A stretch of 35,447 nt of DNA from a virus. The notes under the pieces are model-generated. The model searched no databases. It was given only the letters and a program-made list of their open reading frames with translations, and was not told the origin of the DNA. The stretch spans positions 1-35,447 of the IMG/VR virus record IMGVR_UViG_3300047463_000012, one strand, 5' to 3'. The position numbers and the translations under genes were made by a program. Positions 8,520 through 33,336 of the stretch are shown one piece after another (positions within the stretch are counted from its first letter, which is position 1; each line of letters begins with the position of its first letter).

Positions 8520-11234
8520 CTATTTAGGAAGCTTGGAGAAGTCTACAACATTACCCCCACCAGCGGAATCGCCTTCAACACCAAACCCATATTCCTGCAT
8601 AATATCTTTCCGCATTTGTGCTTGTTGTTGCGGCGTCCCTTTCCTAAACGCTTTATTACTATCAAGTGCCTTCACAGCCTCTACAGCCATCGCTTTCCTA
8701 GCCGCAATAGTTTGGGCGTCTGCACCGCTGGTTTTACCGGATACGGCATAGAAATTCTTATATTTATCAAGCACGGCAGCTTGTTCTTGTGGTGTTTTGG
8801 CGGCATTAAACTCTTCATACATACGTTGACCCAGATTGAACTGGCCGGATTTAATAGCCGCCTCACGCATACTTGCAATTTTAAGTTGTGTGTCACGTTC
8901 AAGTTGTGCTGTACGTTCCCTAGAAGCAGTTTGCTCTTTCGTATCCAGATGGGTAGCCATGTAATGGAACGCTTGCATTTTGTGTTGGTTTTGGGTTTCA
9001 CGTAGTTTAGAAGATTCCAACGCCCAATTTCTGGCTTCTTTAAATTTACCAGCCTCTTGCGCACGATCCGCAGCAAGCTCGGCACGTTCTGCTTTTTGGC
9101 GTTCACGTTCCGCAGCCCGCATCTCTTTGTTAATTGCAGAAATTTCCTTAGCGGCAAGGCCAAGACCTTCACCAAAGTTTTGAATAGCATAAGGCGATTT
9201 ACCCGCTGCAATTGCAAATCCACCCATAGCCAAAGCAATTAGACGATCTTTATTCCCTTCACCCCGCAACCGCTCACCTTCCGCTTTGTAAAACTCACGG
9301 ATGTCTTTGGCTTGGCTAGGCATCTTTTCGTCCAAAATTTTCATGTAGCCAGCAGCTTGTTGTTCGAGATCATCTTTTGGCTCTGCCGCTATATATTTTT
9401 TGAAGTACTCCGTGACTTCATCATTGGCTGCTGCGGCGGGCTTACTTGTAGTAGTTGTCGGCGTTGCCTGTGCTTGCGAAGCCGTAACAGATTTTTCTTT
9501 TGGCGCTGAAATAGCAGGAGCTTCACCGTAACGGCTACGCAATCTTGCACCTTCATCCCCATAATCAGTTATAGGTTTTGTAGTAGCTGTTTGTGTTGCA
9601 ACAGGTACAGCAGCGGGCAATCCAACACGCGACCACGGGTTCATAGGATCAAAAGCTTGACGCGGCGCTGAAGGGGCTTGTTGTGCAGCTTGTTGTGCGA
9701 TACGTTGACGAAGCATTTCAGAACGGTCATTAACCGCGTAAGAAGCAGGTGTATATCCGGTGACTTCAGCATTTGTTCTATAGTCGCCCTGTGCCACACG
9801 CGCCGGATCAGTAGACCACGGCTGAAGAGTCAATAAACCCGCAACGTCCTTAAGGGCCGCTTTACCCCGCTGCAAGCCTTGACCCAGCCACGACTCACCA
9901 GAAGCCACGTTGTAAGCATCAACATCCCCACCATCATCAAAAGCCACAATCCCGCCGTCAGCGGCGGTGAACATATCTTTTTTTACGGGTAAGGTGGCAA
10001 GTGCTTGTTGCGCCAGATCATCTACTACCGTACGTTGGCTCGTTTCTGCTTTGGGCTTACTAAGTTCTAATAGTGCTAATGCCGTGGGAAGTGGCACCAA
10101 ACCGTGTCTACTAGCCAGCGCTGTAGTAGGATCAACCAAATCAATACCGGGAGCGCCGGTAATCCCACCATTCAAATAATGTTCAGTATCGTCAACGGCC
10201 CCACCTTCCGCATACTTTTTAAGACCACCCGGAACTGAACCGCCTTCTTTACCGAACAAACCTGATTTACCCAGCGCACCCAGACCCAAGCCAAGACCTG
10301 CAATCTGACTGAACATGCTCGGGGTAGCTTGGTATTGTTGTGCCGTGGTAATACCCCCCGTCGGCGTTCCGTGCAGGATGTCCGACATAAAGGCAAGTTG
10401 TTGATAGGGGTAGTTCTGACGGTTCAGGAAGTCCTGATACTGATTTGTAAGTGCTTGTTGTTGAAGTGCCTGTTGTTGGGCACCGGCTTGTTGCTGTGCA
10501 GCATTAATACCCATCTGTTGGCCGTATTGCTGTTGGCCCAGTTGGCCCAGCGTTTGTGCAGCCTGACCAGCAGTTTGAAGACCCTGTAAACCAAGGTTGG
10601 CACCGAACTGTTGAGCTTGTTGTGCCGCATTAAATGCGTTCTGTGACCCCGTAGCCTGAATACCGGCAAGCGTATTCTGGAGGTTCCTTTGCGCCTCAGA
10701 CTCGACCAGACCATGCCGACTACCACCGAACGCGCCTTGTTGCGCAGCACTAGCCCCAATCCCCGGAAGTTGACGCCCGTAATCCATAATGGCTTGTTGC
10801 TTTTGCCAATCTACGACGTTTTGCATATAGGGTGACATAAAGGCTTGCGTGGCAGCGGGGCTAGTCGCCATATTCATATAATCCTGACCAGCACCCAGAC
10901 CACCCAGCCCCGCCATCCCAGCCAAACCAGTAGCCTGTCCCGTTTGCGGCGATACCTGCATATTGGCAATATTTCCGAATGCTTGTTGTTGCATTGGCGT
11001 AAAGCCAGCCAGACGGTCACCGCCGTATGTTTGATAGGGGTTTTGGTTAACATCGGTCAGTGCCTGTGCTTTACCCAGCAGTTGCTCTGAATAGGGCTGT
11101 GCCCATGCCGGAAGGTTGGTCTGTTGTACAGTTTGCGTAGTCGGTGTTTGTGGGGCTTGTTGTCCACCACCTCCGCCGCCGATATAAAGACGGAATGACG
11201 CGCCAGTAAGCAAATTAAGAAGTTTTTTAATCAT
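8520..11234 (-). CDS. Large Gln/Gly/Ala-rich internal virion protein
   Basis: This 904-residue protein has a hydrophobic start, then GGGGGGQQ and a conserved segment with LPAWAQPYSEQLLGKAQ and GDRLAGFTPMQQQAF. A long Gln/Ala-rich stretch runs to about residue 270 and includes many AQQQA runs, followed by GGAVDD/GGG linkers. The C-terminal third (about 590-880) is highly charged and helical, probably coiled coil. Such low-complexity helical proteins beside the adaptor and tail genes of podoviruses are usually internal or ejection proteins, and the position matches T7 gp14/gp15. The start overlaps the GNAT gene stop by ATGA, indicating translational coupling. The stop is followed closely by the GGAG box of the next gene. 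The specific role is inferred from position. Confidence 0.65.
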   Translation of the reverse strand: MIKKLLNLLTGASFRLYIGGGGGGQQAPQTPTTQTVQQTNLPAWAQPYSEQLLGKAQALTDVNQNPYQTYGGDRLAGFTPMQQQAFGNIANMQVSPQTGQATGLAGMAGLGGLGAGQDYMNMATSPAATQAFMSPYMQNVVDWQKQQAIMDYGRQLPGIGASAAQQGAFGGSRHGLVESEAQRNLQNTLAGIQATGSQNAFNAAQQAQQFGANLGLQGLQTAGQAAQTLGQLGQQQYGQQMGINAAQQQAGAQQQALQQQALTNQYQDFLNRQNYPYQQLAFMSDILHGTPTGGITTAQQYQATPSMFSQIAGLGLGLGALGKSGLFGKEGGSVPGGLKKYAEGGAVDDTEHYLNGGITGAPGIDLVDPTTALASRHGLVPLPTALALLELSKPKAETSQRTVVDDLAQQALATLPVKKDMFTAADGGIVAFDDGGDVDAYNVASGESWLGQGLQRGKAALKDVAGLLTLQPWSTDPARVAQGDYRTNAEVTGYTPASYAVNDRSEMLRQRIAQQAAQQAPSAPRQAFDPMNPWSRVGLPAAVPVATQTATTKPITDYGDEGARLRSRYGEAPAISAPKEKSVTASQAQATPTTTTSKPAAAANDEVTEYFKKYIAAEPKDDLEQQAAGYMKILDEKMPSQAKDIREFYKAEGERLRGEGNKDRLIALAMGGFAIAAGKSPYAIQNFGEGLGLAAKEISAINKEMRAAERERQKAERAELAADRAQEAGKFKEARNWALESSKLRETQNQHKMQAFHYMATHLDTKEQTASRERTAQLERDTQLKIASMREAAIKSGQFNLGQRMYEEFNAAKTPQEQAAVLDKYKNFYAVSGKTSGADAQTIAARKAMAVEAVKALDSNKAFRKGTPQQQAQMRKDIMQEYGFGVEGDSAGGGNVVDFSKLPK

Positions 11235-11635
11235 AGTTTAATTCCTACAATTCTGTACTTTTCAGTAAACCCGAAGTTTTGTTTAAACAGCCGCGCAACC
11301 GATTCACGCACAGCCCCTTCTAATTCCGTCGCACCCCGCGCAACAACCAGCGCTTTTAACTGCTCAAATACTTCGGGCGTTGAAATAAACTTACCGCTAA
11401 CTGACGTTACAAAAGCAACACGATCATTAGGCCGGTTAAAAAAATTAATTGTACCCGCACCTTGAAGCCCTTTATCATCTGACAAAGTAACCAGCAACCA
11501 AGTACCCTGCGTAACAAACGTCTTTATTTGATCAACCGTATAGTCGTCGCAATGCTCCACAGCTTCCGTAATAAACGGTTCAATCATGGGCCACAACCGA
11601 TTAACCCACTCCAACGGCACAGCTTCTACTTTCAT
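11231..11635 (-). CDS. GNAT-fold acetyltransferase-like virion-module protein (T7 gp13-like position)
   Basis: This 134-residue protein looks like a short GNAT domain: an N-terminal helix pair (WVNRLWPMIEPFITEAV), a strand TWLLVTLSDDKGLQGAGTI, a conserved middle strand pair (VAFVTSVSGKF) and a C-terminal strand-helix with LFKQNFGFTEKYRIVGIKL, typical of the GNAT end. T7 gp13 has a similar fold and sits just before the gp14-16 ejection genes, which matches this position. It overlaps the HNH gene upstream and the 904-aa gene downstream by 4 nt each (ATGA). Whether it still acetylates anything cannot be told; in T7 the related protein is needed for virion assembly. Confidence 0.65.
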   Translation of the reverse strand: MKVEAVPLEWVNRLWPMIEPFITEAVEHCDDYTVDQIKTFVTQGTWLLVTLSDDKGLQGAGTINFFNRPNDRVAFVTSVSGKFISTPEVFEQLKALVVARGATELEGAVRESVARLFKQNFGFTEKYRIVGIKL

Positions 11636-11649
11636 GCAGGTACAAACCT
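11632..11649 (-). repeat. Direct repeat, downstream copy at end of HNH gene
   Basis: This 18-bp sequence (minus strand AGGTTTGTACCTGCATGA) matches 15 of 18 bases of the sequence at 12177-12194. Both copies end in an ATGA stop/start overlap. The two copies exactly bound the HNH gene. Confidence 0.8.
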
Positions 11650-12180
11650 ATTATTTTTGCGCATATTTTCTTTTGCTGGTAAATATTGTAGATTTTCTAA
11701 AACATGAAGTCCTGATACAAGCCTGCCGCGTAATGGGTAAATATGATCTACATGAAATCCTTTTTGGCACTTTTTATAAAACGCTACAATTTCTGACAAG
11801 TTTGCCCATATGGGCGTTCTTTGAAACTTATCCGCAACATACTTACGTTTTAACGCATTTCTATGGCCGGGGTTTAATTTACGCCAATCACGACTGCGCA
11901 ATTTAGCTACTTCACGTTCTTTAGTTGGGTTTGCTGCATAAGCATTCCTACGTTTAGCTTTGAGTTTTTCTTTATTGCGTAAATATTTTGCTTTTACTCT
12001 TGCACGAGTTTTTTCTATATTTGCGTAATAGCGCTCTTGTTCTTTAATTTGTCTGCACTTTACGCAAGTCCCGGTTGAAGTAATACGCACACCTGAATGT
12101 CCCCGTTTACAAGGCTTATCGCTAATATAAAAAGCCTCTCCTTTTACTTGAGCGGCATAACGCGGGCCACGAGCACTCAT
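11632..12180 (-). CDS. HNH homing-type endonuclease (first of three)
   Basis: This 182-residue protein has an N-terminal zinc-binding pattern (C24, H28, C39, C42), a very basic Arg/Lys-rich helix region (50-120), and a C-terminal HNH nuclease motif VDHIYPLRG...SGLHVLENL...EN..KNN (D145, H146, H159, N163, N172). Such stand-alone HNH genes are usually mobile endonucleases that cut related phage genomes lacking the insertion. It lies between two virion genes with ATGA overlaps on both sides. The last codons (RFVPA, stop) closely copy the 3' end of the upstream gene (RFIPA, stop), which suggests a precise insertion that kept coupling intact. The HNH call is firm; mobility is inferred. Confidence 0.9.
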   Translation of the reverse strand: MSARGPRYAAQVKGEAFYISDKPCKRGHSGVRITSTGTCVKCRQIKEQERYYANIEKTRARVKAKYLRNKEKLKAKRRNAYAANPTKEREVAKLRSRDWRKLNPGHRNALKRKYVADKFQRTPIWANLSEIVAFYKKCQKGFHVDHIYPLRGRLVSGLHVLENLQYLPAKENMRKNNRFVPA

Positions 12181-12194
12181 GCTGGAATAAACCT
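12177..12194 (-). repeat. Direct repeat, upstream copy at end of the 533-aa virion gene
   Basis: This 18-bp sequence (minus strand AGGTTTATTCCAGCATGA) is the partner of 11632-11649. It encodes RFIPA-stop and provides the ATG of the HNH gene. The three differences are one silent change and two in a conservative Ile/Val codon. Confidence 0.8.
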
Positions 12195-13778
12195 TTCCGC
12201 ATCAATCTGTTTACCTTGCTTTTTTGTCCCCGTACGAGCTTTACGAACTCTATCCATCATTGCATAAAGACGTTTAGCACCAGCATCAGTTGATCCATTC
12301 CCTAACCCACTTACTACGTCGGCACTAACTACGAATTCACCCTGAGCCAGCGCAGCACGTTGAGGCTTCGGCCCTTTAATAACCGCAGGGATAGAGTCAC
12401 TCATACCGTCCCCCGGCCCTTTAAGCAGTTTGCCGCCAGCAGCATATTCACCAAGGGAAGCGATGCCGCCTTGTGCCATGCGGGTATAGTGTTGATCGTT
12501 AGGGTCGTAGCTATACTGCACGGGTTTGCTTTCTGTTGGCCCAAACAATCCTGCCTGTTGAAGCATTCCTAAAAACCCCGGCAACCCGCCATCGGCCATT
12601 TTTATGGTGCCGCCTTCTGCTGCATTCCTTGTGGGGTCGCGGGATAGTTTGGCAATCAACGCCATCAGATCGGCGTCTTGTTTTGCGCTCTCAGGGTCAA
12701 ACGTTTCTTTATAAACATCCGCATTTACGCTTCTGCTTTTCGGTATATACGCCCCTGCCGCAGCTTTAAATTCATCCCCTTGCTGAGTTATACGAGCGTC
12801 GTAGTCGGTTTTGGGAGCGGCACCGATCACCGAAGTAGGCGTCGGGTTAGCAGTGGACTGAGCATAGAAGTCCGTCTTGTCCATCACATTTTGTTGGGGA
12901 TACCCAATACCACCAGCCGGATAAGGCACTGTGCCGCCATTAGCAGCGTAATAAGTATAAGGCATTGCCGGAGCATCTTCGTATCTACGAGTCTGCGGAT
13001 TCCATGTATAGCGCGGGGCATATCCAGTTTTAGCTTGCGGCCCCGGAGCCGCCGTTGGAGTAGGTGACATCATGCCAGCAGCGCCGAGACCGGCAGCACC
13101 GAGGTACTTCCAATTGTCTTTGGCGAACTGCATTGGATCATTTTTTGCCACATCAAATCCAGCCCCTAATTTTTCCATATAAGACGGGGTTGGGGTAGGC
13201 ACAATTCCTGTACCAGATAAATTTTGAGCGTACCCCGGTTTTGGATTTCCAAATACATCCGTGCTTGAAGGCTGTGTAGATAATGAATACTCAGGAGTAG
13301 AAGGAACAAAGTCCGAAAACTCCGAGTAAGGAATATTAACAGCAGAAGATGTAGCATTTTGTACGGCTGAATCTAGCGCTGCTTGTTTAGCTGCCTCTTC
13401 TGCCGCTTTTTGTTGAAGACTTTGCGCTCCGGCTTGTTCAAAAGCCCCACCCAACCCACTCAACCCATAACCCATAAGGCCGCTCATCAGAGCTTGTTGT
13501 GGACTGGAACCACCAAGATAGCTACCCAGACCCGAACCAACAGCAGCGCCCATGGGGCCACCGATCATCCCGCCAAGGAATCCACCCCCTACCGATAAAA
13601 TCGTATCCAACAGTCCCGCCTCAGTAAGTCCCGTCGTGGGATTGGTAGTCAGGGAGCCGCCGTGGGCGCGGGCAAGAGCATGAAGACCGGCAACTTCACC
13701 TTTGGTCATGTGGACAAGTTCAGTGTCTTTGCCACGCCCTTGATTCTTAAGGTTTTCTGCGAGATGATGCAGGCTCAT
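12177..13778 (-). CDS. Virion protein with Gly-rich hydrophobic N-terminus and conserved C-terminal domain
   Basis: This 533-residue protein has a helical start, then a Gly/Ala-rich hydrophobic region (about 55-115) with repeated GGxxGG and GLGSYLGG patterns that could insert in or contact membrane. A Pro/Thr-rich low-complexity middle follows. The conserved end (about 450-530) contains KGPGDGMSDSIPAVI, LAQGEFVVSADVVSGLGNGS and AKRLYAMMDRVRKART. This C-terminal block recurs in structural proteins of environmental podoviruses. It lies between the C1q-like fibre and the GNAT/ejection genes, so it is probably a minor tail or ejection component. A GAGG box lies about 9 nt before the ATG. No enzymatic motif was seen and the exact role is unknown. 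Confidence 0.65.
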   Translation of the reverse strand: MSLHHLAENLKNQGRGKDTELVHMTKGEVAGLHALARAHGGSLTTNPTTGLTEAGLLDTILSVGGGFLGGMIGGPMGAAVGSGLGSYLGGSSPQQALMSGLMGYGLSGLGGAFEQAGAQSLQQKAAEEAAKQAALDSAVQNATSSAVNIPYSEFSDFVPSTPEYSLSTQPSSTDVFGNPKPGYAQNLSGTGIVPTPTPSYMEKLGAGFDVAKNDPMQFAKDNWKYLGAAGLGAAGMMSPTPTAAPGPQAKTGYAPRYTWNPQTRRYEDAPAMPYTYYAANGGTVPYPAGGIGYPQQNVMDKTDFYAQSTANPTPTSVIGAAPKTDYDARITQQGDEFKAAAGAYIPKSRSVNADVYKETFDPESAKQDADLMALIAKLSRDPTRNAAEGGTIKMADGGLPGFLGMLQQAGLFGPTESKPVQYSYDPNDQHYTRMAQGGIASLGEYAAGGKLLKGPGDGMSDSIPAVIKGPKPQRAALAQGEFVVSADVVSGLGNGSTDAGAKRLYAMMDRVRKARTGTKKQGKQIDAERFIPA

Positions 13779-26280: not shown

Positions 26281-26781
26281 TTATGTGCCTAGGCTATTTG
26301 ATTTTCTACGGTTTTCAGACTGCAAAATTACACGTAAGTTAAACGGAGTATGCAATCCACATACATCTTTACCGCGCAAAGGAATAATATGATCTACTTC
26401 CCACTTTTTACCAGTAACTTCAGTTCTTAGTCTAGCCAAATCATAGGCTTCAGTAATTAGCCACAACATATCCGAATCATTGGTAACCCAACCCGGAGTT
26501 GCTTTAGTTTTAGATGCATATCTGCGAGCAGTTCTAGCATTTACTTTTGCGCGGTTATGTTTAGCCCAGCGGTTACATTTTTCATTGTGCCGCTTACGGT
26601 TTGCGGCAACCCAACGGGCTGACTTCCGAATTACTAGTTCTTTATTTTCTATGTAGTATTTACCCATATAAGACACCACACAGACCTTACATATATTACG
26701 AAGCCCGTCTTTACGAGACTTATCCCGATGAAATTCGGAAACTTCTTTAGTTTCCTTACATTTTGTACATTGTTTTATCAT
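26281..26781 (-). CDS. HNH homing-type endonuclease (second of three)
   Basis: This 166-residue protein has an N-terminal zinc knuckle (C5, C8, C31, C34 in KQCTKCKETKEVSEFHRDKS and ICKVC), a basic helical linker (40-95), and a C-terminal HNH motif VDHIIPLRGKDVCGLHTPFN with a following EN..KSN (D130, H131, H144, N148, N157). It starts with an ATGA overlap on the adaptor gene and has no Shine-Dalgarno box, so translation depends on coupling. Its N-terminal zinc module differs from those of the other two HNH genes here, whereas its nuclease end closely matches the third. It is probably a mobile intergenic endonuclease. Confidence 0.9.
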   Translation of the reverse strand: MIKQCTKCKETKEVSEFHRDKSRKDGLRNICKVCVVSYMGKYYIENKELVIRKSARWVAANRKRHNEKCNRWAKHNRAKVNARTARRYASKTKATPGWVTNDSDMLWLITEAYDLARLRTEVTGKKWEVDHIIPLRGKDVCGLHTPFNLRVILQSENRRKSNSLGT

Positions 26782-32650: not shown

Positions 32651-33247
32651 TTACGCCTTTTGAGGGTGGGCGTCAACAAGTTTATTGGATTTTTCTAGGT
32701 TTTCGGCTTGGGTTATTACACGAAGATTCCATGGCACATGTAAACCGCAAACATCAACCCCACGCAACGGGACAATATGATCCACTACATACCGCTCCCC
32801 AGTAGTTTTAGTCATTGTAATAGCTATCTTATAAATTTCCCTGATTTCAGCTTTTTGTTTAGATGATAGCCATGGAGGGGAAGCCATACGGTGCTTACGG
32901 CGTCTTGCTTTAGTATCTGCGCGAACCCAAACTACATTACGTTCTTTCCATGCTTTCTGATATATACGCCTGACTTCTAAGGGTTGTGTAGCCGCTCTAG
33001 CAATTACTTGTTCCCGATTGTCTTCATACCATTTATGTTTATTATTTTTTACATAATCACGTTTATTGTACTGGGAAAAATAATCAACGCGTTTTATTAC
33101 AGAGGCTTTCCACTCTATCTTCAAACACTCTACACAAGCGCCTTTTGTTTTGCGCAACGCCACATGCCCGTTTTTACAGGGTTCCCCCGTGAAGTAATGC
33201 TTTGCCCCTTGCTCCTTAGCTTCTTTACGTGTCTTTGGGTAATCCAT
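32651..33247 (-). CDS. HNH homing-type endonuclease (third of three)
   Basis: The start chosen is ATG at 33247 (198 residues) with GGAG 5 nt before it; an upstream open extension to 33322 runs into the capsid terminator and is rejected. N-terminal zinc motif GEPCKNGHVALRKTKGACVEC (C24, H28, C38, C41) resembles that of the HNH gene at 11632. The C-terminal VDHIVPLRGVDVCGLHVPWN, then LRVITQAENLEKSN (D156, H157, H170, N174, N183) resembles the one at 26281. It follows the capsid terminator, so it needs its own promoter or read-through. It is probably a mobile endonuclease. Confidence 0.9.
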   Translation of the reverse strand: MDYPKTRKEAKEQGAKHYFTGEPCKNGHVALRKTKGACVECLKIEWKASVIKRVDYFSQYNKRDYVKNNKHKWYEDNREQVIARAATQPLEVRRIYQKAWKERNVVWVRADTKARRRKHRMASPPWLSSKQKAEIREIYKIAITMTKTTGERYVVDHIVPLRGVDVCGLHVPWNLRVITQAENLEKSNKLVDAHPQKA

Positions 33248-33268
33248 GATAACTCCAAGTGACTTAGT

Positions 33269-33306
33269 TACAGGTAATATACCATGGAAAAAATAAAAAG
33301 CAACAA
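33269..33306 (-). promoter_or_regulatory. Possible extended -10 promoter for the HNH and downstream genes
   Basis: On the minus strand, TATATT at 33276-33281 is preceded by TGG (the TGn extended -10 motif). A weak -35 (TTGCTT) lies 16 nt upstream, counting to the TATATT box. It lies just past the capsid terminator and before the HNH ribosome site, where a promoter would be useful. The surrounding A/T-rich sequence makes chance matches likely. Confidence 0.4.
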
Positions 33307-33336
33307 AAATAAAAAGGGCCACCCGAAGGTGGCCCT
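33305..33336 (-). terminator. Rho-independent terminator after the major capsid gene (UUCG loop)
   Basis: On the minus strand a 9-bp GC-rich stem AGGGCCACC/GGTGGCCCT (33315-33323 and 33328-33336) closes a TTCG loop, the very stable UUCG tetraloop. A T-rich tract (TTTTTATTTTT) follows at 33305-33315. It lies 23 nt after the capsid stop codon. It should uncouple the highly expressed capsid genes from the genes further downstream. Confidence 0.92.

Follow-up and report, generated by a model that had tools for sequence, protein, structure and literature searches.

An HNH endonuclease gene at a coupled junction of a phage operon probably ends in the displaced last codons of its upstream gene

The stretch of DNA analysed here, referred to as the window, comes from a virus record and is 35,447 bases long. 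An HNH gene lies between a 533-aa gene and a GNAT-like gene, with the following features.

12177..13778, minus strand: upstream (host) gene, an ORF of 533 aa ending in AERFIPA-stop
12177..12194, minus strand: left repeat copy AGGTTTATTCCAGCATGA (RFIPA-stop), the present end of the upstream gene, read from the sequence
12177..12180, minus strand: ATGA overlap of the upstream gene stop and the HNH start, read from the sequence
11632..12180, minus strand: HNH/endonuclease VII-like gene, 182 aa, ending in NNRFVPA-stop, with a CxxGH...CxxC zinc-ribbon-like N-terminus
11740..11754, minus strand: nuclease-motif residues 143-147 (HVDHI), conserved in the family alignments
11644..11649, minus strand: RF codons (AGGTTT), the native HNH protein end NNR[FY], from the orthologs in L029, L030 and L109 and the family tails
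11632..11643, minus strand: VPA-stop GTACCTGCATGA, an upstream-gene-type tail ending the HNH gene, from the tail-model score and likeness to L240
11632..11635, minus strand: ATGA overlap of the HNH stop and the GNAT start, read from the sequence
11231..11635, minus strand: GNAT-fold acetyltransferase-like gene, 134 aa, which adjoins the upstream gene directly in HNH-free relatives
8520..11234, minus strand: DNA-ejection-protein-like gene, 904 aa (phrog_4287, E 9e-27), the conserved downstream flank

The upstream gene encodes a conserved C-terminal domain ending in [KR][FY]xPA, as seen in its relatives and in the tails at 99 loci. We label it a putative phage structural gene, although it has no Pfam or PHROG match. 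The GNAT fold of the downstream gene is supported by a structure model with a pLDDT of 91; the PDB entries that match it best are N-acetyltransferases (E 4e-8 downwards). The protein encoded between them matches PHROG 1035, named endonuclease VII (E 1.6e-13), and phrog_26577 (E 1.4e-11). The catalytic His/Asp motif HVDHI...N...N is kept across its family alignment, in which a Pfam HNH match (E 0.0024) was obtained for other members only and not for the protein of the window. Its structure model has a pTM of 0.41, and the HNH nucleases listed by Foldseek are not significant (best E 0.9). Relatives of this protein were found in 138 phage records. Two more are encoded in the window itself, at 26281-26781 and 32651-33322 (35% and 32% identical), one of which likewise starts in an ATGA overlap; neither has a tail match to its upstream gene (8/18 and 6/18).

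The HNH gene is optional at a fixed site. It is present in the window, L029, L030 and L109, and absent from 91 other loci carrying the upstream gene. The HNH proteins of the window and L029 are 56% identical, whereas their adjoining genes are 22-36% identical; the corresponding values for the window and L109 are 72% and 36-50%. Between L029 and L030, HNH diverges about as much as its neighbours. The higher identity of HNH in the window and L029 agrees with the gene having spread horizontally to the same site, and both comparisons with the window give the pattern expected of a free-standing homing endonuclease. We infer from these sequences that the gene is a free-standing, homing-type endonuclease gene, with predicted cutting and homing activity.

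The original prediction held that the HNH gene was inserted exactly at a coupled junction, and that in the ancestor an RFxPA-type end was joined by ATGA directly to the GNAT gene. HNH-free relatives support both points: in 19 loci, of which L004, L188 and L190 are the nearest, the upstream gene is joined to the GNAT gene by an exact, intact ATGA. The closest, L004, reads KFMPA-ATGA, with the ATGA being the start of a GNAT gene 92% identical to that of the window. Junctions without HNH do carry the tail, and on this count the prediction was not refuted. A near-identical HNH-free twin of the window was not found; scanning contigs for a closer relative that lacks HNH yielded a single weak locus. 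In fourteen HNH-free loci, inserts of 360-1800 nt separate the upstream gene from the GNAT gene. The 11 inserts inspected (L198, L205, L210, L216, L217, L220, L222, L249, L251, L252 and L214) contain other ORFs of very variable length, mostly Gly/Pro-rich, none of which resembles the HNH family. This variety of ORFs indicates that the junction is a variable spot in the phage group. In L007 (4579-7281), the upstream gene continues beyond its usual xPA end and encodes a protein of 900 aa ahead of the GNAT gene, an alternative fate of its end.

At the sequence level, the end of the upstream gene (AGGTTTATTCCAGCATGA) and the end of the HNH gene (AGGTTTGTACCTGCATGA) match in 15 of 18 bases, in register with both stops, and both copies finish in a 4-nt ATGA overlap with the next gene. 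This part of the original prediction was confirmed. It might be supposed that what the two copies share is a signal for translation initiation or coupling and not a duplicated tail, as both sit ahead of an ATGA start. However, most relatives end the upstream gene in [KR][FY]xPA or a near-variant irrespective of what comes next, and this protein end is kept even where the gene stops in TAA and the downstream gene has a separate start (L012, L013, L224 and others). Furthermore, the GNAT/ejection junction of the window is ATGA-coupled without the 18-bp repeat. We therefore regard a coupling signal as a very improbable explanation.

The strength of the match depends on what is counted. With the shared ATGA removed, 11 of 14 bases match (naive chance P = 4e-5). 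Among the loci fetched, 15/18 was reached by 3 of 361 distinct ATGA-coupled gene pairs, namely those of the window, L047 and L351. The third of these, L351 (5894-6745, minus strand; also L350), holds a Mom-like gene, so labelled from sequence. This gene is flanked by two others, has ATGA at either end and terminates in an exact 20-nt repeat, AAAATAGGTAATACATGAAA, copying the last codons of the upstream gene. It is a second, non-nuclease tail duplication at a coupled junction. A further candidate, L069 (GGAGAAAAAGAAATG), is rich in A, looks like a ribosome-binding site and was left uncounted. To assess the HNH family, related pairs were collapsed into clusters and compared by Fisher test, which replaced an all-pairs shuffled protein null contaminated by related loci. 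Strong C-terminal matches were found in 2 of 53 HNH pair clusters and 2 of 1454 others (p = 0.007). From these counts, tail matching looks like a real habit of the HNH family, but not a family-wide one. When upstream and HNH tails were aligned locally throughout the family, L047 was the one pair that stood out clearly (score 79, against a null maximum of 44).

Orthologs of the HNH gene show which part of the tail is its own. L029 and L030 carry HNH at the same junction, between homologs of the same two genes. Their HNH proteins end in NNRFDLP and NNRYISQ, and their upstream genes in GTLVDE and TLIDEQGR, respectively. Because NNRF and NNRY are kept despite differing upstream ends, RF belongs to the HNH family's own end. 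When RF and ATGA are both removed, 5 of 8 bases match the window's own upstream tail (P = 0.027), and this comparison alone is unconvincing. It might then be argued that the match arose by chance: a native NNRF end followed by three unconstrained residues, by coincidence VPA, ahead of an ATGA that is merely common. The L029 and L030 HNH tails match the upstream tail of the window in 13 and 14 of 18 bases without any copy, and FVP, WVP or FIP follows the conserved end elsewhere in the HNH family (L051, L075 and L094). On the strength of L029 and L030, chance was nearly accepted as the whole explanation, and was overturned by a tail model, L109 and L047.

The tail model covers the codons between RF and the stop, and sets 67 distinct upstream-gene tails from HNH-free loci against 105 HNH-family tails. 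The window HNH tail scored 10.2 bits in favour of the upstream-gene model, ranking first of 105 and well separated from the next tail (2.8 bits); true upstream tails average 10.0 bits. The match is thus strong against the whole family of upstream-gene tails, and not against the window's own upstream tail alone. The upstream-gene tail of L240 is identical to the window HNH tail in 17 of 18 bases. Of 111 distinct HNH tails, just two end in PA, those of the window and L109, and both stand behind xPA-ended genes. With the mechanism demonstrated within the same HNH family in L047 (see below), these results leave little probability for chance. The claim that the HNH end duplicates the upstream tail thus holds in part: there is an extra tail copy, but RF is native, and the duplicated part in the window, judged from sequence, is about three codons (VPA) plus the stop and not 18 bp. 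RFVPA is not a fixed HNH ending, since it occurs only in the window (L109 has RYSPA, L029 RFDLP and L030 RYISQ), and the prediction was not refuted on this count either.

L109 is the second carrier of such a tail. Its HNH, which shares ancestry with that of the window, lies at the same site in a genome that has no GNAT gene there. It ends in RYSPA-TAA-AGGATA, and the upstream gene of the HNH-free relative L269 ends in KFLPA-TAA-AGGATA. The L109 HNH thus looks as if it runs into the recipient's own gene end, although its tail taken alone is weak in the tail model (2.3 bits).

Base-by-base resolution was obtained for L047, in which a phosphoesterase-like gene (labelled from sequence motifs) is followed by an HNH that belongs to the same family but is more distant. 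L047, L133 and L272 are reports of a single contig, the only one behind this case. The HNH end, GADYLNYLRSKK, is similar to that of its upstream gene; the upstream gene ends in VESGADYLNYLRSKK and HNH in VQEGADYLNYLRSKK, with ATGA on both sides, and the HNH tail extends past the NKF that is usual in the family. The C-terminal extensions of HNH are VPA in the window and EGADYLNYLRSKK in L047. L273 is an HNH-free near-twin of L047. Their upstream genes differ at 1 position in the first 1031 nt and at 14 in the last 49, and the two loci are identical from the HNH tail on, including 400 of 400 downstream bases. This pattern identifies the HNH tail as the gene's original end, now shifted by 569 bases, and the present upstream ending as one that arrived with the insert. 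Most differing codons of the imported ending are silent, and two residues differ. Among the relatives fetched, its closest other tail matches in 37 of 49 bases, and the original ending has neighbours at 46-49 of 49. At the same junction, L276 (3770-4327) and L275 (5077-5634) hold an MT-A70-like methyltransferase ORF (labelled from sequence) that spans ATGA to ATGA without a tail copy, and the junction accepts different cassettes.

L047 bears on the direction of the exchange. In the original prediction, the upstream gene kept its original end, and a copy of that tail came in as the 3′ end of the HNH element. The window does not decide between the two directions, since both copies match the L004 tail in 14 of 18 bases by direct count; with no close HNH-free twin, original and import look alike there. 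Such a twin would have GTACCTGCATGA at its upstream end before the GNAT gene if the tail was captured, and ATTCCAGCATGA if the HNH element had brought it. The direction can be resolved only in L047, whose HNH carries the displaced original tail, and the HNH end of L109 has the stop and intergenic sequence of an HNH-free relative. Both argue against a tail brought by HNH, which we consider unlikely. By analogy with L047, the right copy in the window would be the original and the left copy, AGGTTTATTCCAGCATGA, the imported ending, and VPA-stop at the end of the HNH gene is probably the displaced original tail. Insertion and tail duplication therefore stand, probably with the direction reversed.

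We consider it likely that the upstream gene's last codons were the point of entry of the HNH gene, that an imported ending completes the upstream gene and that the split-off codons end HNH. An endonuclease gene with an alternative ending of its target gene would insert in frame into the target's last codons. This would cut the 533-aa gene, which is apparently split close to its 3′ end, off from its last few codons. The second ending borne by the insert would complete the upstream protein and terminate in the ATGA start of HNH, and the split-off xPA-TGA would become the HNH C-terminus, retaining the ATGA overlap with the GNAT gene. The enzyme is presumed to cut the uninterrupted gene end and to spread through break repair, and the altered ending may also guard against self-cutting. 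Tail capture builds on the HNH-free ancestral junction, the native NNR[FY] end, the upstream-type HNH tail in the window and the mechanism traced in L047 and L273. Against it stand L029 and L030, which lie at the same junction without a tail copy, and the shortness of the shared part, just three codons and the stop.

A comparable exchange is known from fungal mitochondrial mORFs, found in Glomus atp6, atp9, cox2 and nad3 and in Allomyces atp6 (PMC3630166). The mORFs insert near the 3′ end of the host gene and bring a foreign C-terminus with them; the native one, which they displace, matches the insert-free relative (PMC3630166). As in mORFs, an endonuclease ORF here comes with a foreign C-terminus, the native end lies downstream and the differences between the copies are largely silent (PMC3630166). 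The C-terminus duplication flanking the endonuclease ORF is clear in L047 and is indicated in the window by the tail model; in L047 the displaced copy is that of the insert-free relative and the inserted copy is foreign. In contrast, the mORF enzymes are LAGLIDADG or GIY-YIG and mitochondrial (PMC3630166), whereas those described here are HNH/endonuclease VII-like and from phages, and here translation of the displaced native end yields the C-terminus of the endonuclease, with the ATGA overlap with the next gene retained. The free-standing T4 mob and seg endonuclease genes are likewise phage-borne, optional and located between conserved genes; five of the T4 ORFs overlap the upstream gene, and mobE has overlapping stop and start with nrdA (PMC2988022). 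In the passages considered, and unlike the site predicted for HNH here, their cutting sites are hundreds or thousands of bases away, and exchange or duplication of a neighbour's tail is not described; mobE in Aeh1 and mobA in T4 split the host gene (PMC2988022). F-CphI of cyanophage S-PM2 is a homing enzyme with an endonuclease VII motif, and an intron in its target gene prevents self-cutting (PMC6083498). HNH is similarly phage-borne and of endonuclease VII type; the likeness is one of motif and family name, and unlike F-CphI, the HNH site has no intron. In the open-licence literature, we found no phage report of C-terminus exchange.

These cases may tentatively be grouped as a phage class of tail-exchange homing elements, in which an endonuclease gene comes with a 3′ end of its target gene that is altered in sequence and resists cutting. 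If this is true, such elements enter the genes of gapless operons at almost no cost and are nature's equivalent of recoded-rescue gene drives: an allele already occupied is shielded by its altered ending, and translation of the next gene is maintained by the native tail that was captured. Tail exchange would extend C-terminus exchange from fungal mitochondria to phages. For annotation, both genes at such a site may have hybrid final codons. The footprint is readable, as the last codons of the endonuclease would be the neighbour's old end, and it would indicate where uncharacterised enzymes are likely to cut. In summary, tail exchange would offer selfish endonuclease genes a route into gap-free phage operons by which no gene is broken and the next gene is still coupled.
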